Source: Streptomyces umbrinus | GTDB taxonomy: Bacteria; Actinomycetota; Actinomycetes; Streptomycetales; Streptomycetaceae | Assembly: GCF_030817415.1 (NCBI RefSeq) | Contig: NZ_JAUSZI010000002.1 | Coordinates: 10,391,501 to 10,455,500, forward strand | Length of the DNA stretch: 64,000 bases | Direction: 5' to 3' | In this document: piece after piece, positions 1-9,844 of the stretch | Position numbering within the stretch: position 1 is the stretch's first letter | How the letters are laid out: each line of letters starts with the position of its first letter | Notes under the pieces: model-generated | What the model saw: the letters and a program-made list of their open reading frames with translations, nothing else | Databases searched by the model: none | Told to the model about the DNA's origin: nothing | Program-made: the position numbers and the translations under genes

Positions 1-768
1 GCCGGCCTTCGGCGGCAGCGGGCGGGCCCGCAGCCGGTCGGCCAGCGTCTCGAAGTCGCCGCCCTCGCCGGTGGAGAACGTCCAGGAGAAGTAGACCGGC
101 AGCTCGCAGCGGGCCCCCGGAGTCCAGGCGGGCGCGAGATTCCCGCCGGCGACGTCCTTGCCGAGCCCGGCCAGCCGCCCCACCTCGAAGGAGGGGACCA
201 GACAGGCGGTGTAGGCGGTGTGCGCCAGCAGCCGGCGAGGAGCGAGCAGCCGGGAGACCGACCGGCGGGGGTCGGTCTCGTGCCCCGGGAGGGTCTGTGC
301 GTGGGCCCACAGGTGCAGTAAGGCCGGATCGGGCAGTTCGGTCCCGTCGACCCGCAGCACGGGCAGTTGGATGCCTGGCTCCCGCTGCGGCCGGCCCGCC
401 GCGAACGGAACGCAGACCAGCGCGAGCCAGGGCCGCAGGGCGCCCGTCGGACCCGGCGCCAACGGGGTGAACAGCCAGGGAAGTTCGGCCCGTTCGAACT
501 CCACCATCGGGAACTTGGTGGTCTCCGCGTCCGGTGTGCCGGGCAGCGGGAAGAGCCGCACGATCTCCTTGGGGTCGAGCGCCCGCACGTCGCCCGGCCC
601 GTACAGCTGCAGTGCGGGGACCGGAACAGGCTGCGCGGGGCGGTCGTTCACCGAGGCGGTGGCCGCCAGCGAGCCCCGTACGGGCAGGGTGTTGACCAGG
701 GTGTCGGGGTCGGCGAGCGAAGCGGCGGCCCCGACCCGCTGCCAGGACGCGAAGGTGTACGTGGTCAT
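1..768 (-). CDS. Large hypothetical protein, C-terminus beyond window edge
   Basis: The frame is open from an ATG at 768 to the window edge, giving 256 residues with no stop, so this is the N-terminal part of a longer protein. It begins MTTYTFASWQRVGAAASL and contains the hydrophobic stretch ELPWLFTPLAPG followed by LRPWLALVCV. No signal peptide or membrane helix is evident. The start codon overlaps the stop of the upstream DUF6603-like gene (ATGA, 765-768), which implies translational coupling and joint function. I do not recognise an enzymatic family. From memory only, proteins with an ELPWLFTP-type segment accompany DUF6603 proteins in actinobacteria; I could not test this. It is unlikely to be a shadow, because the opposite strand carries no better gene. 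Confidence 0.8.
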   Translation of the reverse strand, partial: MTTYTFASWQRVGAAASLADPDTLVNTLPVRGSLAATASVNDRPAQPVPVPALQLYGPGDVRALDPKEIVRLFPLPGTPDAETTKFPMVEFERAELPWLFTPLAPGPTGALRPWLALVCVPFAAGRPQREPGIQLPVLRVDGTELPDPALLHLWAHAQTLPGHETDPRRSVSRLLAPRRLLAHTAYTACLVPSFEVGRLAGLGKDVAGGNLAPAWTPGARCELPVYFSWTFSTGEGGDFETLADRLRARPLPPKAG

Positions 769-3437
769 GGCCTCACCTCGTGTGCGGACACGACCTGGTA
801 CAGCGCGGACCGGCCCGACACGGTCCTCAGCTGGGCGGTGGCCTCGGTGAACGTGGCCGTCCGGACGAACCCGCCGGCCTCCTTGAGCGTGCCGGTCCCC
901 ACGATCGCGTACGTCCGCTCCTTCAGGACCGACGTGATCGGCGCAGTGGAGTACCGGCTGCGCAGTTCGTGCACGAGACTGCGGCCGACGGCCCCGAGGG
1001 GCAGTGCGGCCGTCAGCGCGGCGTCGGAGAGCACCCAGTGCGCGCCCGGGGTGATGACCGTGCCGCCGAGCCATTTGGTCTCGTACTCGACCGGCACCGA
1101 GTAACGGGGGGCAGCCGCCGAGGACGCGGGCGGGGTCAGCTCGCTGCCCGAGCGCAACCGCTCGAAGGCCGGCTGGGTGAGCTTCTCGTCGTCGGTCAGA
1201 TCGAAGAAGTCGGCCCGTGCGAAGTCCTCCTCGACGGGCTTCACGTCGCCCGCCCCGGCGGAGAACGCGACCTTCACACCGAACTTCGCCGGCGTCGGCA
1301 GCCGGCCCGGTCCGAACCGGACCACCTCGGTGTCCAGGGGAACCGTGCGCTGGCTGAAGCGGAGCCGCCCGAGAGGGTGCAGCAGACGCCCCCCTGCGGC
1401 GGCGTCGTCGGAACGCAGCGACACCATTGTGCGTGCCCCCTCCGGGAGGACCGGTTCCCAGCTCCGGGGGTCCTTCAGGGCCTGTTCGAGGAGTCGGCCG
1501 ACGTCCGGGGGCGGCGGGGCCTTGGCCTCGCCGGTGCAGTTCCAGCGTTCGTCGAAGGGGAAACTGACGTCGAAGAAGAGGATGGACACGCTGGCGCGGC
1601 CGGCGACGTGCCAGCAGGGCGTCGGCCCCTCCACGTCGACGCGCAGCCCGACCGAACACAGGGTTTCCCCGGCGAAGCGCAGCGCGAAGGAGCCGGCGAG
1701 GTCGAGCATGACGCCGAAGCTGGGCTCCCAGCGCACCAGGGCGTCGAAGGAGAGCCGCCCGGACACCCCGGTGCGGCTGGAACCGATGACCGCGGAGAGC
1801 TCGGCGCCCGCCTGGACGGTGCCGGGGGTGAGGGCGAAGTAGCCGCTGAAGACGATCCGCAGCAGCGGGCTGTCCGCGATCGGGATCGTGAGGCGCTTGG
1901 GCGTCGGAAAGCCCGCGGGCGGGGTGAACCGGGGGTGGAAGCCGCCGGCGCTCAGGATGAACGTAGCGTCCTGCCCGCTCTTGGCCCGCAGCGCGAGACC
2001 GCCCTCAATCGAGGCGGTCAGCAGCCGGGAACCCGCCAGGTTGGCGTTGATCTCGACCAGCCCGTTCGCCGCGTCCACGACCCCCGCGACCGAGGCGCGC
2101 AGATCGAGGATCGGAGCCTGCGGGGCGGGCAGCGCGACCCTGAGCCGGCCGAGGATCCCCACCACACCGCTGGGCAGCTCGAGGACCACCCCGACATCCG
2201 CGGTGAGGAAGGAGACCGGACGGCCCCAGCCGACCCGGAACATCGGGCCCACGACGGTGCTTCCCGAGCGGGCCGGGAACACCGCGCCCAGCGAGGCCAG
2301 GATGCGAGGCGCCGCGGCAGCCGCGTCCGCGGGGAAGAGCAGGTCGTCCAGGTGACCGGACTGGACGACCTCAGCGAGGCCCGCCCGGTCGAGCGCGCGG
2401 CCGATGCCGAGAAGACCACCGACGGCGTTCAGCGTGAAGGCGAGGCCCAGTTCGATGGCCGGAGTGAACTCGGCGCTCATCGCGACCAGGACCGACACCG
2501 GCCGGGTGTCCAGGATCCCGAAGGCCTGCACCTCGACGACGCCGAGGCTGAGCGACAGCGCCCCCCGGTACTGACCGTCGTGCTCGGCGAGGAACCCGCC
2601 GCCCTTGGCGGGGCCGACGGCGAGGGTCAGCCCGAGGCCCTTCGGCGGAACCAGAGCCGCCGTGTACCCCGTGCCCGCCGGGCGGACCTCAAGACCCGCG
2701 CCGTCCACCGCCGCGTCCGCGAGACCGAGCAGCGACGCCCGGAAGGACGCGTCGAGCCGCAGTCCGCCGTTCTGGGCGGACACGTACAGCGAGGGCGCGC
2801 GCACCCCGGAGGGCGCCCCGCTCAGGGGGACCGCGATACCCCTGCCGCTGCCGCCGCCGTCCAGGCGCAGTCCCCCCTTGCCGAGCGTGGCGCCCAGTCG
2901 GCCCTTGAGGACGAGGCCGCCGGGGACGAGGAGCTTCAGCAGCGCGTGGTCGGTGAGCGCGAAGTCGACACCGTCGGCCCGGAAGGTCAGCGAGGAGGTG
3001 TCGGGCGCGGCGGACGGCAGGGAGAGCACGAGACTGACCCCGTCGCGTACGGCCAGGCCGGGTACGAGAGGGAGCGCGCCGGTGAGGACGAGGGAAAGGT
3101 CGATCTTAGGGGGCAGGGCCCCGACAAGGGGGTTTTCCACGCCACCCGGCCCAGCTGTGAGGACCTGGTCGATAGCCAGCGCCCATCCCGGCGGGGACTG
3201 TCTGACGGCCGTCCGCAGCAGGTCGACGAGGACCGGCCACACGTCGCCCGGGGCCGCCACGTGCGGCAGGGCGAACCGTACGAGCAGCGCGTCCGCCGTC
3301 AGCGCGTCACTGGGCAGCCCGAGCGCCTGCGCGAGCCGCTTCCTGCGGTCGGCCGGGGACAGACCGGAGAGGAGCGGGAGCACCGGGTCGAGTCCCGCGC
3401 GGAGTTCGGCCGCCAACTGCGGCAATGGGCTTGCCAT
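765..3437 (-). CDS. DUF6603-like giant beta-rich protein
   Basis: The protein is about 890 residues. It consists of repeated alternating hydrophobic/glycine segments (for example VVLELPSGVVGILGRLRV and GGLALRAKSGQDATFILSAG) that predict a long array of beta strands. A characteristic final hairpin, VSILFFDVSFPFDERW, lies about 650 residues in, followed by a less regular 240-residue tail. This pattern matches my recollection of DUF6603 proteins, whose function is unknown. There is no signal peptide or catalytic motif. The start is uncertain: the ATG at 3437 (MASPLPQLAAELRAG) gives the most natural N-terminus, but an in-frame GTG at 3494 is possible and neither has a strong ribosome-binding site. 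The gene is coupled to the downstream gene by an ATGA overlap. Confidence 0.82.
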   Translation of the reverse strand: MASPLPQLAAELRAGLDPVLPLLSGLSPADRRKRLAQALGLPSDALTADALLVRFALPHVAAPGDVWPVLVDLLRTAVRQSPPGWALAIDQVLTAGPGGVENPLVGALPPKIDLSLVLTGALPLVPGLAVRDGVSLVLSLPSAAPDTSSLTFRADGVDFALTDHALLKLLVPGGLVLKGRLGATLGKGGLRLDGGGSGRGIAVPLSGAPSGVRAPSLYVSAQNGGLRLDASFRASLLGLADAAVDGAGLEVRPAGTGYTAALVPPKGLGLTLAVGPAKGGGFLAEHDGQYRGALSLSLGVVEVQAFGILDTRPVSVLVAMSAEFTPAIELGLAFTLNAVGGLLGIGRALDRAGLAEVVQSGHLDDLLFPADAAAAAPRILASLGAVFPARSGSTVVGPMFRVGWGRPVSFLTADVGVVLELPSGVVGILGRLRVALPAPQAPILDLRASVAGVVDAANGLVEINANLAGSRLLTASIEGGLALRAKSGQDATFILSAGGFHPRFTPPAGFPTPKRLTIPIADSPLLRIVFSGYFALTPGTVQAGAELSAVIGSSRTGVSGRLSFDALVRWEPSFGVMLDLAGSFALRFAGETLCSVGLRVDVEGPTPCWHVAGRASVSILFFDVSFPFDERWNCTGEAKAPPPPDVGRLLEQALKDPRSWEPVLPEGARTMVSLRSDDAAAGGRLLHPLGRLRFSQRTVPLDTEVVRFGPGRLPTPAKFGVKVAFSAGAGDVKPVEEDFARADFFDLTDDEKLTQPAFERLRSGSELTPPASSAAAPRYSVPVEYETKWLGGTVITPGAHWVLSDAALTAALPLGAVGRSLVHELRSRYSTAPITSVLKERTYAIVGTGTLKEAGGFVRTATFTEATAQLRTVSGRSALYQVVSAHEVRP

Positions 3438-3765
3438 CAGCGGGCCGTGGGGAGATGGGGGACGTTCATCTGATCGGCACCGTTCTCCGCCCACGGGTCA
3501 CCGGGTGACTCTGGAACCGAGGCGGATGGGGATCGGGAACACCCCCGACGCTATCCCCGCCCGAGGACCGGCGCGCGGCCACGAATCGCGGGACGCCCCC
3601 GGTCCGGTGCGGAATTCACCCGACCAGCAGAGGCCTGCCCCGGACCGTCGTCGGCGCGACGCCGTTCTCGCGGGGTTGGCCGGCGGCAACGCCGGAACAG
3701 GCGCTCCTGGTCGCCGAGGTGGCCCGGGAACGGTCCGGATCTTGCGGGGGACCGCGAAGGCCAGA

Positions 3766-5679
3766 TCAGACCCAGATGCTTGGCCACTGCCGGGACCAGG
3801 ACTCGGCGCGATGGGAAGCGGCTACTGAAGACGGTGCCGCCAGGCCGATCGCGAGATCCCCTTCAGTCCAGAGCAGGCGACGGTGAAGCAGCTCTGCCAG
3901 CGCTCCCTCGGCATCCTCCTCGCACAGGGCACCGGCCTCGACCAGTCCATGAGTGATACGCCCGATGTTGAGCGGCCGCTCATCGAGTTCTTGGTAGAGC
4001 AACGAGGCGGCTTGCGACAGTGTGTAGGTGTGCGGGTCCGTGTCGAAGCGGCTGTCGTTGATCACCAAGGCGGCGCCCACCTGCGTCCACGAGAGTTCGA
4101 CGAACCGCTCGCGGTGCTGCTTCTTCCAGTGGTCGATCTGCGTTCGGAGCTGGCCGTAGGCAAGATCGAGATCAGGTGCGTACTCGAAGTTCCGCTGGAA
4201 ATAGTAGGCGTACTCGTCCAAGGAGAATCCCGTTTTGTCCAGGAATGCCCTGGAGAGGAGTACGTCGTAGCACTCGTGATGGACTGCGCGCTGCGTGAGG
4301 CCGAATCGAGCGGGGTCCGTCTGAAGTGGAGCGAATCGCGTCACCACGGTCTCAGAACGTGCCACCGGCGGGGCCAGATGGTACAGCGTGGGCAGCCTTC
4401 TGAGCATCTCCTGATAGACCTCCAGTGAGTCGTCGGGGAGGCCGTAGAGAATGTTGTAGTGGATCGCCAGACGGTGGACGTATCCCGCCTTCAGCAGAGA
4501 GACGTTGTCGATGCCGCGCACACCTTTGCGCATGGATCGCAGGACGGGTGACGCGAACGACTCGATGCCGGGCTGGACCGCCACGTAGCCGGCATCGACG
4601 AGGGCGCGAACCCGCTCCGGTGGGTGGTTCGCCTTGATCTCGCTGTGGAGCGAGAACTTCGGCTGCTGCTCGCTGAGTTTGGGCAGCAAGTCCGTGTAGT
4701 AGTCCTTCGGCATGATGTAGTCGGAGAAGCGGTACGTGGTCTCCCCGTGCCGTTCGCGGAGTGTCGTGAGCATGCGCAGCGTGTCAGCCGCTGATCGGTG
4801 CCGGTACTTCAGCGTGTCGTCGTCGATACCGCAGAACACGCAGTGCTGGCTCTGTCCCCACCAGCAGCCGCGTGACGCCTCCACGGGCAGCACTGTGGTG
4901 GGGATACGAAGGCGGTGTTCCGCGGCGAGTGCGTCGAGGTCGTGGAACCAGTCGCTGTAGTCGGGCAGTGGCGTACGGGTGAGGTCGAACCTGGGCGGGC
5001 GAATGATCCGGTCGGCGAGGTGACCTGGCCACGAGGCCCGGTCACCACCCCCGAGAACGGCGAGGGCGAGGTCGACGATGACCTGCTCTCCGTCGCCTTG
5101 CACCACGGTGTCGACGACATCGAAGGCCTGGGCGACGGTGCGTCCGGGCTCCCCTTCCAGGGCGTAGCCGCCGAACACGACCGTAAGTCCCGGATCGCGG
5201 GCCTTGAGCCGGGTGGCGAGCGCCAGAGAAGCCATGGTCTGGTCGAACAGGCAGGTGAACCCCACCAGTCGGGGAGACATGGCCAGGATGCGCTCGGCGA
5301 CGTCGTCAAGAAGCTGCGGGACGACCTCATGACGTACGCGTAGGAACAGCTCGAGCACCGCCGCGGCGTCCGCGTATCCCTCGGGCGGCGGATTGCCCTG
5401 GGTGTACTTCAGGATCCGGTCGACGACGGCCTTCTCCTGCTGTTCGTCGAGTAGCGGATCGAGTTCTCCGGTGAAGACGAACTCGTTGAGTCCCCAGGCG
5501 TTTGCCAGATACTGGTAGGTGCCAGGCTTGAGCCATCTCAGCAAGTGCGGAGCAACGTGGACCACTCGTGAACGGATTCCGGCCTCGCTGAGGCAGCCGG
5601 AAAGGATCCCGAGTCCCAAAGTCGGCTCGGCGGGCGGTGCCCAGGGCATGCTCACCAGGACGACGTCGTACTGCGTCAC
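3766..5679 (-). CDS. B12-binding radical SAM RiPP maturase (TIGR03975-like)
   Basis: This 637-aa protein has an N-terminal Rossmann-like cobalamin-binding region at about residues 1-210 (LGLGILSGCLSEAGI, VVFGGYALEGEPG). A radical SAM domain follows, with the cluster motif at C272, C280 and C283 in EASRGCWWGQSQHCVFCG. The CWWG context is typical of the 'ribosomal peptide maturation radical SAM protein 1' family, which includes peptide C-methyltransferases and related enzymes. It would bind a 4Fe-4S cluster and SAM, probably with B12, and modify the product of the gene immediately upstream (43-bp gap, same strand). The GTG start at 5679 has a GGAGG about 13 nt upstream. Base composition looks less GC-rich than the flanking genes, which suggests acquisition. 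The exact modification cannot be told from sequence. Confidence 0.9.
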   Translation of the reverse strand: MTQYDVVLVSMPWAPPAEPTLGLGILSGCLSEAGIRSRVVHVAPHLLRWLKPGTYQYLANAWGLNEFVFTGELDPLLDEQQEKAVVDRILKYTQGNPPPEGYADAAAVLELFLRVRHEVVPQLLDDVAERILAMSPRLVGFTCLFDQTMASLALATRLKARDPGLTVVFGGYALEGEPGRTVAQAFDVVDTVVQGDGEQVIVDLALAVLGGGDRASWPGHLADRIIRPPRFDLTRTPLPDYSDWFHDLDALAAEHRLRIPTTVLPVEASRGCWWGQSQHCVFCGIDDDTLKYRHRSAADTLRMLTTLRERHGETTYRFSDYIMPKDYYTDLLPKLSEQQPKFSLHSEIKANHPPERVRALVDAGYVAVQPGIESFASPVLRSMRKGVRGIDNVSLLKAGYVHRLAIHYNILYGLPDDSLEVYQEMLRRLPTLYHLAPPVARSETVVTRFAPLQTDPARFGLTQRAVHHECYDVLLSRAFLDKTGFSLDEYAYYFQRNFEYAPDLDLAYGQLRTQIDHWKKQHRERFVELSWTQVGAALVINDSRFDTDPHTYTLSQAASLLYQELDERPLNIGRITHGLVEAGALCEEDAEGALAELLHRRLLWTEGDLAIGLAAPSSVAASHRAESWSRQWPSIWV

Positions 5680-5722
5680 GAATGCGTTCCCTCCACGTTC
5701 AGCGAGACTGCGCGGGCCGGTG

Positions 5723-6199
5723 CTACAGCTTGACCTGGCCGCTCTCGTCGACGATCACCTCTGTGTCGGGCGTGGGAGCTTCGAGCAGAATGATGATCAC
5801 GATGACGGCCACGGCGATGAGTTCGGTGTCGCTACGGGCCATACCGGTGCCATCCGCTCCCTGCATCAGGCTCAGCGTCGTCGCCTCCTGCAGCAGGGCC
5901 GCGGCGCCTGGTGAAAGAGACACGTCGAGCTGCTCCGCCACGCGCACGGGGTCGGTGGAGAGTTCCTTGATGTACCGCCCATCCCGGACGGCCTTGTTGT
6001 ACAGGTCCAGCGCCTCGCGGCCCTCCTCCGGAGTCGCGCTGAGGTTGCGGGCCTGTGCTTCCGCCGACCCGGAACGGTAGGCGGCCTCCAGGACCGTGGT
6101 GGACGTGATGGACCGACGCATCTTCTCCACGCTCCCAGCCAGTGCTTCGCTCTGGAACAGCGGGTGCTTGAAGTAGATGCTCGGAAGCTGGTCGGCCAT
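5723..6199 (-). CDS. Candidate RiPP precursor with V/I-rich core
   Basis: This 158-aa protein is encoded directly upstream of the B12-radical SAM enzyme on the same strand. Residues 1-120 are soluble and helix-forming (EALAGSVEKMRRSITSTTVL), as expected for a long leader peptide. The C-terminus switches abruptly to a very hydrophobic block, IAVAVIVIIILLEA, followed by a polar tail ending DESGQVKL. Long leaders with Val/Ile-rich cores recall proteusin-type substrates of C-methylating radical SAM enzymes. I see no clear nitrile-hydratase-like or Nif11 signature, so the leader class may be new. Alternatively it is a small single-pass membrane protein and not a substrate. ATG at 6199 is preceded by GAGGGATCCTCC. 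Confidence 0.7.
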   Translation of the reverse strand: MADQLPSIYFKHPLFQSEALAGSVEKMRRSITSTTVLEAAYRSGSAEAQARNLSATPEEGREALDLYNKAVRDGRYIKELSTDPVRVAEQLDVSLSPGAAALLQEATTLSLMQGADGTGMARSDTELIAVAVIVIIILLEAPTPDTEVIVDESGQVKL

Positions 6200-6483: not shown

Positions 6484-7566
6484 TCATGCGGTTGGTTGGA
6501 AGCCGCTGATGGTGGCCTCGACCATGCGGGAGACCCGCTCGAGTTCGGCTCTGGTCGGATCGGCGGGGACCTTGAGGTTCTGCCACACGACCACGAAATC
6601 GAGGTTCCGGTTGTTGTCGTGGACCTTCAGTGCCTCCGAGACCACCTTCTCGACGACACCGGCGCTGTTGGGCTTGAGCGGGCCGATGCCGATCTTCGCG
6701 TGGGTGGCGGAAAGCCCGCCGTTCGGCCACAGGAGTTCGCGGTGGAACCAGCTGCGGCCGCCACCCAGGAGCATCTGGACGAGATCCGTCGGGCTGCCAC
6801 TCTCCAGGCTGCCGTCGAACATCCGGGTGACGAGTCTCGCCATGTCCACGGCTGTGGTCGCCTGGGCGACCTGCCCGTCGTTCGTGGACGCGATCCGCAC
6901 CGGGGTCCATTGCCCCAGGTAGTCACCGGCGAGCCAGATGCCCTGCTGGGTCGGCTTCCGGAAGAAGCCGTCGTCTCCGGCCTTGGCGTTCATGAAGCCG
7001 AACGCGACGCCATGGATGCTGGCCGCAGCGCCCGGGTTCTGCTGCTGGAGGAGCATCCCCCTGAGCTGGGTGCGGTAGTCGAAGGTGAACTCGACGTCGA
7101 TCGGCCGCCCCGTCGCGTCGAGTTGCGGGTCGAGAACCGTCCGGTAGGCCGGCACGATCTTGGTGGCGTCGCTCCCGTGCTGGGCGGTGATGGTGCTCGG
7201 GGTCGCGGTCGTGATCTGGTGGTCGAAGTCGGACGAGAGGGCGAGGAAGAACGCGTCCGACGACGACGGCTGCTGTTCCAGGAGCAGTTGACGGGAGAAG
7301 AAACGGAGTGTGTGTGCCGCGTACATGGCGAGGAGTTTGACCAGGCTGCCCGAGAAGTGGACCTCGTTCTGCCGGTGGCCCGCCCACGCTCGCTCGTCAG
7401 TGCCTTCCAGAGCCACCACGGTGAGGGCGACCCGTTCGAGTGCGGTGCGGTCGGCTCCGGACAGCCCGTTCATGAAACCGTTGAGCGCGTTCTGCATGCT
7501 CCGGTTACGGTCGGCTGCCCCCTCGGCTTGGAGATTGTCGCCGTACGCTCCAGTGAACAACTCCAT
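6484..7566 (-). CDS. Beta-lactamase/PBP-fold serine hydrolase
   Basis: The 360-aa protein contains FSGSLVKLLAMYAAHTLR. Its Ser74-Leu-Val-Lys77 matches the SxxK nucleophile/base motif of class A beta-lactamases and DD-peptidases. A KIG triad (THAKIGIGPL) near residue 300 resembles the KTG motif of the same fold, and a VVVWQN strand follows. No signal peptide is visible, so it is either cytoplasmic or exported with a partner. It lies on the same strand between the peptidoglycan-binding gene and the RiPP-like cassette, which fits a role on cell-wall peptide or a related amide substrate. An antibiotic-resistance role is not implied. The ATG at 7566 gives a sensible N-terminus. Confidence 0.75.
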   Translation of the reverse strand: MELFTGAYGDNLQAEGAADRNRSMQNALNGFMNGLSGADRTALERVALTVVALEGTDERAWAGHRQNEVHFSGSLVKLLAMYAAHTLRFFSRQLLLEQQPSSSDAFFLALSSDFDHQITTATPSTITAQHGSDATKIVPAYRTVLDPQLDATGRPIDVEFTFDYRTQLRGMLLQQQNPGAAASIHGVAFGFMNAKAGDDGFFRKPTQQGIWLAGDYLGQWTPVRIASTNDGQVAQATTAVDMARLVTRMFDGSLESGSPTDLVQMLLGGGRSWFHRELLWPNGGLSATHAKIGIGPLKPNSAGVVEKVVSEALKVHDNNRNLDFVVVWQNLKVPADPTRAELERVSRMVEATISGFQPTA

Positions 7567-8285
7567 GTCGATCGACCCTCCTTGCGTACGAAGGAGATGG
7601 GCGCCGCGAGGACTGCGGCGCTACCGATGAGCATGTACCTCCCTCCATTCTCGTACGTCACTCCGCCGACTTCAACTTCCACGACGCCCCACCGCACGCG
7701 GCCGGTAGGCGCTACTTGTAGTACCGCATCAGCTCTCCGTTGCCGCAGGTGGTACAGCTGGGTGCTCGAACTGGCGATCGCGACCGGGATGGGCAGACCC
7801 GGCAGCCGGAGGTGGCACATCTGCTCCACCCCGCCGCTCGGCGGATACCGGAAGATCTCTCCCGTGTCGAGGAGCTGGTACACGTCCCCGGCGCCGACAC
7901 TGATCTCCAAGGTCCGGAGGTCGGTGTCGATCGTGTCCCAGGACGTGCCTCCCAAGTGCCGCAGGATCTGTCCGTTGGCCAGCCTGGGTTCTCCGGACGC
8001 GCGGAGGACAGGGGTACGCATCAACCCGCAGCGGGACTTCAGCATCTCGGCACGCGTGCTGTGGTCGAAGACACCTGTCGGTGTGAGCGCGCTGTGCTCC
8101 TGGAACCAGGCCAGGGCCAGTGCGGTGATGTCGTCGAGGCGCCCCGCTTCGTAGGAGCGCGCGGGGATGTACCCGAGCTCAACCAGGAATAGCTGGACGT
8201 ACTCGAAGCCGTCCTGTCTCTGACCGGGTCTGGTGGTGCCGACGCCGGCAACGGTGCGTCTCGAGTCGGTCTTGTGCGGTCCCAT
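7470..8285 (-). CDS. Peptidoglycan-binding domain plus beta-repeat protein, probably frameshifted
   Basis: ATG at 8285 has an excellent GGAGGAG ribosome-binding site. Residues about 25-85 form a PG_binding_1-like domain (VQLFLVELGYIPARSY, ALAWFQEHSALTPTGVFD). About 90 residues of repeated short strands follow (LANGQILRHLGG, YQLLDTGEIFRYPP), resembling a partial beta-propeller. Near 7743 the repeat pattern ends, and the open frame runs on into the next gene. In the adjacent frame the pattern continues as NGELMRYYK and stops at 7712. Removing one C near 7743 restores a 190-residue protein that ends cleanly before the serine hydrolase gene. The true 3' end is therefore probably 7712. The cause is either a sequencing error or a real frameshift. 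Confidence 0.7.
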   Translation of the reverse strand: MGPHKTDSRRTVAGVGTTRPGQRQDGFEYVQLFLVELGYIPARSYEAGRLDDITALALAWFQEHSALTPTGVFDHSTRAEMLKSRCGLMRTPVLRASGEPRLANGQILRHLGGTSWDTIDTDLRTLEISVGAGDVYQLLDTGEIFRYPPSGGVEQMCHLRLPGLPIPVAIASSSTQLYHLRQRRADAVLQVAPTGRVRWGVVEVEVGGVTYENGGRYMLIGSAAVLAAPISFVRKEGRSTWSCSLERTATISKPRGQPTVTGACRTRSTVS

Positions 8286-8623: not shown

Positions 8624-9844
8624 ATGGAATCGGGCAGGATTGAGCGGAACCCCGACATGCCGGAGACGCCACCACTACACCCCCGATCGGGCCGTGAGCT
8701 GGAACACGACGCGGCCGAGCGACTGGACGAGATCCGGCAGTACTTCAAGGACCAGTACGCGGAGCGCAACGTCGTCGCCCGCACGACGACCGAGTCCGGC
8801 GACGCGCTCGACTGGGTCCCCGTCGAGTCCCAGGGCGAACCGCCCTACATCGAAGCGGCGGACCGCCCCTACGACCCCGACCGCCCGTCCTCGCCCCAGC
8901 CCTTCGAAGCGGGCCAGTCGCGCGAAGAGACCGGTCCCCCCGGCACCGTCCCGATGCTGCGCAAGCCGCTGGACCGCATCACCCCGGTCGGAACCCTGCA
9001 GGACTACCTGTCGAAGGGGATCTACGCGAAGCGGTCCACGCCGCCCGACGACCCCGGCCTCGCCCTGCCCCGCGCCGCCACCGCCGTGCACAAATACGCC
9101 CACGCCGCCCAGGGCGTGACCAACTACGGCACCGAAGGCTTCATCAACACGTGGCGGCCTTACGTCCAGTGGTCCAACGAGTTCTCCCTGGGGCAGCTGT
9201 GGGAGGTAAGGGGATCGGGGGCCGGGACCGATCTGCAGACCGTCGAAGTGGGCGTGCAGACCTACTACGACCTCTACGGCGACTGGTATCCGCACCTGTT
9301 CATCTTCTACACCACCAACAACTACACGCAGATGGGCAACTACCTAGGCGGCTACAACCGGGACGTGAAGGGCTGGGAGCAGCTGTCGAGCACGGTCTAC
9401 CCCGGTATCCGCGTGGCGGAGAGCGTCTACGCGGGAGACCAGTACGACCTCGCCATCAAGGTCATGCTGTACCTGAACAAGTGGTGGATCCGGATCGGCA
9501 ACGAATGGATGGGCGGCTACCCCACCAGCCTGTTCAACGCCACGGGACTGCGCGACCAAGCGGCTTCCATCGACTGGGGCGGCGAGATCGTCGACGACGT
9601 CGCCAACCACCCCGAGGCCACGTACACCTGGATGGGCAGCGGGCGCTTCCCGTCCGAGGGCTGGAGCCGCGCGGCCTACATGCGCAACCTGACCTACCAG
9701 TCCGACGCGGCCGGCACGATGAAGCCGGTGGTGGGCTACCCCTATGTGACGAACCCGAACGCCTACCAGATCTCCACCGACTTCACCGGCACGTCGACCT
9801 GGGGATCGCACTTCTACTGGGGAGGCCCGGGTGGAGTCGAGTGA
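8624..9844 (+). CDS. Neprosin-family glutamic endopeptidase
   Basis: The protein is 406 aa. Residues about 1-165 form a polar, proline-rich pro-region. From about 175 it matches the neprosin (DUF239) catalytic domain: FSLGQLWEV, TVEVGVQTYYDLYGD, NKWWIRIGNEWMGGYPTSLF, SIDWGGEI and a terminal HFYWGGPGG. Glu208 (TVEVGVQ) and Glu321 (WGGEI) align with the two catalytic glutamates of plant neprosin, a prolyl-specific glutamic peptidase active at acid pH. No classical signal peptide is seen, which is odd for this usually secreted family. ATG follows AAGGAGAGCACG. The gene is divergent from the peptidoglycan-related run. Its substrate is unknown. Confidence 0.88.
   Translation: MESGRIERNPDMPETPPLHPRSGRELEHDAAERLDEIRQYFKDQYAERNVVARTTTESGDALDWVPVESQGEPPYIEAADRPYDPDRPSSPQPFEAGQSREETGPPGTVPMLRKPLDRITPVGTLQDYLSKGIYAKRSTPPDDPGLALPRAATAVHKYAHAAQGVTNYGTEGFINTWRPYVQWSNEFSLGQLWEVRGSGAGTDLQTVEVGVQTYYDLYGDWYPHLFIFYTTNNYTQMGNYLGGYNRDVKGWEQLSSTVYPGIRVAESVYAGDQYDLAIKVMLYLNKWWIRIGNEWMGGYPTSLFNATGLRDQAASIDWGGEIVDDVANHPEATYTWMGSGRFPSEGWSRAAYMRNLTYQSDAAGTMKPVVGYPYVTNPNAYQISTDFTGTSTWGSHFYWGGPGGVE

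Follow-up and report, generated by a model that had tools for sequence, protein, structure and literature searches.

Gene organisation of the locus

The 64,000-nucleotide stretch of Streptomyces umbrinus DNA analysed here (the window; contig NZ_JAUSZI010000002.1, positions 10,391,501 to 10,455,500) carries on its minus strand two adjacent genes, which encode a 158-residue protein and, downstream of it, an enzyme combining a cobalamin (B12)-binding domain with a radical S-adenosylmethionine (SAM) core (Table 1). Homologues of the 158-residue protein were found upstream of related enzyme genes that form a single clade, and the protein is probably the substrate of its neighbour, which would C-methylate valine (Val) and isoleucine (Ile) residues in a hydrophobic block near its C-terminus. 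An initial annotation, made from the DNA alone, had read the pair as a candidate cassette for a ribosomally synthesised and post-translationally modified peptide (RiPP). Its two open reading frames (ORFs), separated by 43 bp (5680-5722), were confirmed by the ORF coordinates, and the hydrophobic block and polar tail of the 158-residue protein, hereafter the precursor, are present as it described them.

Table 1. Features of the two-gene cassette, with positions in the window.
Feature	Position	Strand	Basis
B12/radical SAM RiPP C-methyltransferase (TIGR03975), 637 aa	3766..5679	-	ORF, GTG start, stop included; 436 bits (curated cut-off 281.85), profile positions 1-605 of 606
Putative precursor/substrate protein, 158 aa	5723..6199	-	ORF, ATG start, stop included; homologues upstream of 22 related enzyme genes
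Precursor leader part, residues 1-122	5834..6199	-	mostly helical in model; weak NHLP-clan (Os1348-like) similarity, residues 69-115
DGRY motif, precursor residues 73-76	5972..5983	-	DGR[YF] or DGQY in 28/28 rows of alignment A3
V/I-rich block, precursor residues 127-141 (LIAVAVIVIIILLEA), proposed modification site	5777..5821	-	composition compared with controls
Conserved polar tail, precursor residues 142-158 (PTPDTEVIVDESGQVKL), proposed follower/recognition element	5726..5776	-	[KR]-hydrophobic C-terminus in relatives
Enzyme B12-binding domain, residues 120-204	5068..5322	-	PF02310, E 1.7e-10
Enzyme radical SAM core, residues 268-426	4402..4878	-	PF04055, E 1.9e-8
Enzyme CX7CX2C [4Fe-4S] motif, residues 272-283 (CWWGQSQHCVFC)	4831..4866	-	cysteines invariant in 19-row alignment
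Enzyme C-terminal winged-helix-like domain, residues 529-612, possible RRE-like leader-binding domain	3844..4095	-	predicted model and profile matches

The enzyme is a full-length member of TIGR03975, and its B12-binding and radical SAM domains both exceed their cut-offs. The cysteine cluster noted initially (C272, C280 and C283) has the spacing CX7CX2C and is conserved without exception in 19 aligned sequences, this enzyme among them, while the proposed N-terminal cobalamin-type domain was recovered as PF02310. The enzyme fold matched OxsB, TokK, CysS and TsrM. Three of the best structural matches (TokK, TsrM and MgmA) are methyltransferases by title, though the top match is OxsB, which carries out chemistry other than methyl transfer. 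The C-terminal domain was modelled in the order beta-beta-beta-alpha-alpha-alpha-beta-beta with a predicted local distance difference test (pLDDT) score of 90-97 for the block, and its profile matches were winged-helix regulators (best E 5e-4). The winged-helix fold is also used by RiPP recognition elements (RREs), and on the predicted model the domain is a possible RRE-like leader-binding domain; a search for PqqD-like RREs returned weak matches only (E 0.24 and 0.059, one row each).

Pairing of precursor and enzyme across genomes

Relatives of the enzyme are abundant, with 973 matches at E 1e-40 or better among the 7996 candidates scored. A scan of genome contigs with the 19-enzyme alignment yielded 438 relatives, and among the best 80 loci, which were kept, 22 (besides the S. 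umbrinus locus itself) contained a precursor-type ORF upstream of the enzyme gene. The spacing was tight, with the precursor stop codon at most 62 nt from the nearest possible enzyme start in 21 of these 22 loci. In an enzyme tree of 106 rows, obtained from a set of 110 after removal of four short aligned pieces (L063, L099, L109 and L112), the precursor-bearing enzymes formed a single clade of 24 (Shimodaira-Hasegawa-like approximate likelihood ratio test support 99), which spans seven phyla and consists of the 22 precursor loci, the present enzyme and L052. The latter is the only clade member lacking a precursor, and its contig begins inside the enzyme gene; L054 sits on a long branch and its placement is unsure. 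No precursor was detected by profile in any of the 82 tree rows outside the clade. A dedicated precursor gene linked to a maturase gene, as is characteristic of RiPP systems, is thus present and specific to one clade, which bears out the cassette reading of the initial annotation.

The precursor family was assembled stepwise. Used as the sole query, the 158-residue protein matched one other protein (86% identical). The profile was seeded with 15 loci chosen by eye together with the 158-residue protein and P0002, and it then brought in seven further loci (E up to 0.1). As a control free of homology, upstream ORFs on the same strand within 1 kb were screened for a V/I-rich block near the C-terminus. 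Such an ORF was found in 21 of 23 clade loci, the other two being below the threshold, and in 0 of 86 others, some of which may be cut short because the length of upstream DNA was not enforced.

Precursor homologues were also confined to enzyme loci within genomes. Across 22 genomes, a set biased in that it comprises the S. umbrinus genome and 21 reached through enzyme loci, 21 had matches to the profile, 22 in all, and the coordinates identified every one of these as an enzyme-linked ORF. Two matches lay in G430 and none, at the profile threshold, in G434, the genome of L054. One precursor accompanied each enzyme in the genomes examined. With up to 9 candidates scored per genome, 396 Actinomycetota genomes yielded no further precursor matches, and 146 genomes of the genus Mesorhizobium (at most 25 each) returned only the three matches already known. 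The homologue search proposed in the initial annotation thus led to enzyme-linked proteins, and in none of these three genome sets did it reveal homologues that are plain membrane proteins without an enzyme. In a sample of the genus Streptomyces, 99 of 392 genomes had a match to the enzyme at E 1e-40. Apart from the enzyme's own gene and two pieces in genome G172, the matches listed were 29-38% identical to it, and none of those placed in the tree belongs to the clade.

The two genes are co-inherited. Precursor and enzyme distances were correlated (Mantel r 0.90 for 21 rows and 0.74 for 17 rows after removal of near-duplicates), and none of 2000 permutations reached as high a value in either set. 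The ratio of non-synonymous to synonymous substitution rates (dN/dS) was 0.09-0.18 for precursors in six pairs from two trios of genomes and 0.05-0.25 for the enzymes of the same trios, indicating purifying selection in the relatives; four of the six pairs have dS values close to or exceeding 1, which makes their ratios rough. Since ORFs of the same family stand at the same position in 22 other loci and the relatives are under purifying selection, the cassette ORFs are not chance ORFs.

A further indication comes from the close relative G172, which aligns with the first 10 kb of the window in pieces (88-97% DNA identity). It lacks the stretch from the precursor start codon to approximately codon 35 of the enzyme, as well as the part coding for enzyme residues of approximately 250-541, including the radical SAM core. 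The remaining enzyme pieces (78 and 86% identical) lie in different frames and the flanks are kept, so by this alignment the precursor and the enzyme core have been lost together. The gene upstream of the precursor (6484-7566) was found in 2 of 384 genus genomes, S. umbrinus and G172, and the history of the locus can therefore not be read more widely.

Architecture of the precursor

The C-termini of the precursors align, and the relatives share one architecture: a helical leader with a DGR[YF] motif, a V/I-rich block and a polar tail that ends in Lys/Arg and a hydrophobic residue. The alignment (A3) contains 28 precursor rows, which include near-relatives and are not independent; L046 and L054 were left out, and seven rows are database proteins lacking gene context (P0002, P0125, P0126, P0127, P0129, P0130 and P0133). 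All 28 rows have the Lys/Arg-hydrophobic ending, which is found in 23 of the 294 ORFs that these loci contain, precursors included, and 23 of the 28 rows have Asp at position -8. The tail following the block is 15-27 residues long and conserved across phyla, and the block itself is nearly unchanged within genera. Some members possess a longer N-terminal part (L045, L047, L048 and L049, with 284-316 aa from the first start codon), and a recurring GF[TVI]CG[ST]xGxPPxP segment was seen in the extra N-terminal part of the long precursors L045, L047, L048, L049, L050, L053 and L055.

In the AlphaFold2 model, the precursor has helices including residues 57-73 and 97-112, with pLDDT of approximately 80-92 for residues 51-110 and below 50 for residues 1-31. 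The initial annotation could not place the leader in a class, and indeed no class was reached above its cut-off, including the nitrile hydratase leader peptide (NHLP) families of proteusins. What can be added is a distant NHLP-clan similarity: the single matching family for the 158-residue protein was NF038399, at 18.5 bits compared to the cut-off of 40, and 4 of 14 precursor rows matched it at E 0.01 or better (best 0.00043). The nearest structure in the Protein Data Bank (PDB) was 6lk7 (E 0.087), which from its length and name is presumably Os1348. The precursor family is new, as no description was found in a literature search, whereas the kind of enzyme is already known.

Composition of the hydrophobic block

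The 15-residue block contains, over the 28 rows, 40% Val, 24.5% Ile, 12% Ala and 8% Leu, while 54 control hydrophobic segments from other ORFs in the same loci contain 19% Val, 12.5% Ile and 22% Leu. Val and Ile together thus account for 64% of the block compared to 32% in the controls, and Leu, Phe, Trp, Tyr and Met for 11% compared to 33%. As the blocks are more hydrophobic than the controls (mean 3.26 and 2.67, respectively), the comparison was made in hydrophobicity-matched bins. The excess of Val and Ile persisted, at 53 versus 31% (5 blocks, 39 controls), 61 versus 34% (12 and 13) and 73 versus 37% (11 and 2), the highest bin containing only 2 controls. The sole control that reached the mean Val and Ile content of the blocks is itself derived from a precursor (L046). 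To our knowledge, ordinary membrane helices do not usually have such a composition, and it could well be that this make-up suits the substrate of a Val/Ile-modifying enzyme.

One could instead regard the precursor as an ordinary small membrane-anchored protein, with a helical cytosolic domain and a C-terminal membrane helix, next to an enzyme that acts on a lipid or on another peptide. The protein has a single hydrophobic stretch, which resembles a membrane helix and is given a low-confidence helix in the model, and the family has no cleavage motif in common, both of which would suit an anchor. We nevertheless consider this unlikely, since an anchor would account neither for the strict pairing with one enzyme clade over seven phyla, nor for the correlated distances and the joint loss in G172, nor for the bias towards Val and Ile at matched hydrophobicity.

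Proposed function of the cassette

We propose that the two genes constitute a minimal, co-inherited cassette of substrate and maturase, in which the enzyme C-methylates Val and Ile residues in the block of the 158-residue protein, and assign this a probability of approximately 0.68. The folded helical leader would be recognised by the enzyme, which would generate a 5'-deoxyadenosyl radical and abstract hydrogen from Val and Ile side chains of the block, most likely at Cbeta. Methylcobalamin would then donate a methyl group, and this may recur several times over the length of the block. Conservation of the C-terminal tail suggests that it may serve as a follower or docking element, possibly via the free C-terminus. 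The product would be a stiff, very hydrophobic segment, likely resident in the membrane. As no protease or exporter is conserved, it may be released by a housekeeping protease, or the block may stay attached to its leader.

Several points weigh against this proposal. Modification of the 158-residue protein is suggested by the family and motif of the enzyme, and CX7CX2C is no distinguishing mark of this clade, as all 106 rows of the tree set have it, whether they belong to the clade or not. The pattern of the family has exceptions: the L057 precursor lies approximately 780 nt from its enzyme, and the L054 precursor, which is not part of A3, has DNRL in place of the DGR motif. By sequence comparison, the leader can at most be called a distant NHLP-clan domain and is no confident NHLP member, and AlphaFold2 models the block as a helix (residues 124-139), albeit with low confidence. 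No leader cleavage site is common to the precursors, 7 of the 28 rows having a GG in the 20 residues before the block, and no protease, exporter or immunity gene is conserved in the 23 neighbourhoods, which extend up to 8 kb to each side and less at contig ends.

The lack of a conserved protease, exporter or immunity gene also fits a protein that is never processed, namely a structural or signalling protein embedded in the membrane whose helix is methylated in place, rather than a peptide natural product that is secreted, a reading that shares the methylation step with the cassette proposed above. The purifying selection, the near-constancy of the block within genera, the single precursor per enzyme and the tail conserved across phyla agree with it as well. 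Housekeeping proteases and exporters could, however, serve a processed product, and the weak NHLP-clan signal of the leader points to RiPP ancestry, so we regard the absence of processing as a minority view, though the strongest of the alternatives. In its widest form, which we hold to be similarly speculative, the family in at least seven phyla would comprise small membrane-embedded proteins with a single beta-branched membrane helix that is C-methylated in place by the dedicated B12/radical SAM partner and never cut out. It would then be a conserved system for modifying membrane proteins, with the Lys/Arg-hydrophobic end as the docking end for the enzyme.

The substrate could also be assigned correctly and the reaction be another one, such as formation of a C-C or C-O bond, epimerisation or conversion of Val into a cyclopropane. 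B12/radical SAM enzymes perform other chemistry in other RiPP pathways, which makes methylation less than certain: a biphenomycin-like pathway contains such an enzyme, the title reaction being the cross-linking of ortho-tyrosines (excerpts of PMC12257519), and the radical SAM enzyme TvgB makes cyclopropylglycine from Val, the word cobalamin being absent from the excerpts of that paper (PMC9062424). On the other hand, the block of the 158-residue protein lacks an aromatic or Cys residue with which a cross-link could form, both the family name and CX7CX2C are associated with C-methylation, and several of the best structural matches, OxsB excepted, are methyltransferases. Of the three alternatives, a different reaction appears the most improbable.

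Relation to known systems

Within TIGR03975, the enzyme is a full-length member above the curated cut-off that differs from other members in belonging to a clade that is marked out by a precursor family of its own. The polytheonamide-type proteusins are the nearest parallel in terms of chemistry. Their precursors have a long leader, as in the cassette, and their clusters contain several further tailoring genes (an epimerase and others). Both systems pair a CX7CX2C B12/radical SAM enzyme with a hydrophobic, Val/Ile-containing target. The cassette differs in that it has no conserved further tailoring, protease or exporter gene, in the conserved tail after the block and in a leader that is not confidently of the nitrile hydratase type. 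Genes of the polytheonamide tailoring type were neither conserved in the 23 neighbourhoods nor present among six scanned window proteins. Given the lack of conserved extra genes, the tail and a leader below the NHLP cut-off, the enzyme may work in a PoyC-like manner, yet the cassette is not filed as a proteusin.

PoyC is reported to methylate Ile3 and Val5, 10 and 21 at Cbeta, within the N-terminal 21 residues of polytheonamide, and to yield 5'-deoxyadenosine and S-adenosylhomocysteine, with CX7CX2C being described as an unconventional motif of PoyC and of the polytheonamide and bottromycin Cbeta-methyltransferases (excerpts of PMC11285071 and PMC5682303). A B12/radical SAM enzyme with a DUF5825 partner is likewise said to C-methylate clavusporins (excerpts of PMC12257519). 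By analogy with the PoyC, bottromycin and clavusporin enzymes, the cassette enzyme would methylate the V/I block. It differs from the clavusporin-type pair, being 31% identical to a Streptomyces clavuligerus plasmid enzyme, assumed to be the clavusporin maker, which is annotated with the same family name and adjoins DUF5825. The six window proteins scanned, among them the products of both adjoining genes, gave no DUF5825 match with E up to 10.

Two further systems resemble the precursor. Os1348, an NHLP-clan protein of Pseudomonas sp. Os17, represents the only curated family and best PDB match for the leader, below the cut-off; it has 85 aa and is accompanied by acetyltransferase, HEXXH and SagB-type genes, and the term radical SAM is absent from the excerpts of its description (PMC7726476). 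TMcins are RiPPs with a transmembrane helix in precursor and product, and the likeness lies in the membrane-helix-type segment. Their processing involves disulfide formation and an S2P-type protease, and neither radical SAM nor methyltransferase is mentioned in the available excerpts (PMC13252029).

TIGR03975 enzymes are numerous, and one study set aside clusters found by the TIGR03975 rule as likely false positives after manual inspection (excerpts of PMC9426513). One clade can now be assigned a specific and testable candidate substrate family, whose target block is clear and whose members can be recognised in different phyla by DGR[YF], the V/I block and a D...K-hydrophobic end. Should the proposal hold, the pair would be a two-component system for radical C-methylation of Val and Ile, useful for making peptides that bear tert-butyl groups, and one would have to ask what purpose a methylated membrane helix serves.

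Neighbouring genes and related loci

No third gene family linked by BLAST recurred in at least three of the 23 neighbourhoods besides one antisense shadow ORF, in line with the two-gene cassette described initially; as such links connected the enzymes of 21 loci and the precursors of 15 loci out of the 23, distant third partners could be missed. The earlier remark that no protease is adjacent is to be supplemented by a gene 2.4 kb from the cassette for a Neprosin-family protein (PF03080, 406 aa, 8624-9844 plus, E 5.8e-42), a putative glutamic peptidase. This gene is absent from those common to the cassette neighbourhoods, and G172, whose cassette is broken, has the stretch carrying it too. The next gene downstream of the enzyme encodes a DUF6603 protein of 909 aa (765-3494 minus; PF20248, E 3e-101), with a 907-aa ORF at the corresponding place in G172. 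On the other side, a 360-aa protein (6484-7566 minus) has sub-threshold beta-lactamase-like similarity (E 0.03), and its gene adjoins an ORF with a peptidoglycan-binding domain (7470-8285).

Other ORFs with hydrophobic stretches were seen near enzymes of this type. An outside-clade TIGR03975-type enzyme in G400 lies near a 171-aa ORF (L030, 62-577) with a different C-terminal V/I-rich stretch (VTVTDDIIIVDAIFAQEE). Two Bacteroidales loci (L040, 3398-3961; L042, 2812-3378) have a similar hydrophobic, membrane-like ORF of 187-188 aa directly after the enzyme, possibly a lineage-specific partner. Finally, seven TIGR03975-like loci of the genus (L009, L012, L013, L017, L020, L021 and L027) share a peptide of 39-48 aa, e.g. 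MQKDIIHNDPLAGDEENRKPSVGITVTVPFRNAEDAEED, with a hydrolase-like ORF upstream, presumably prolyl-oligopeptidase-like, and in most cases a DUF5825-like ORF downstream.
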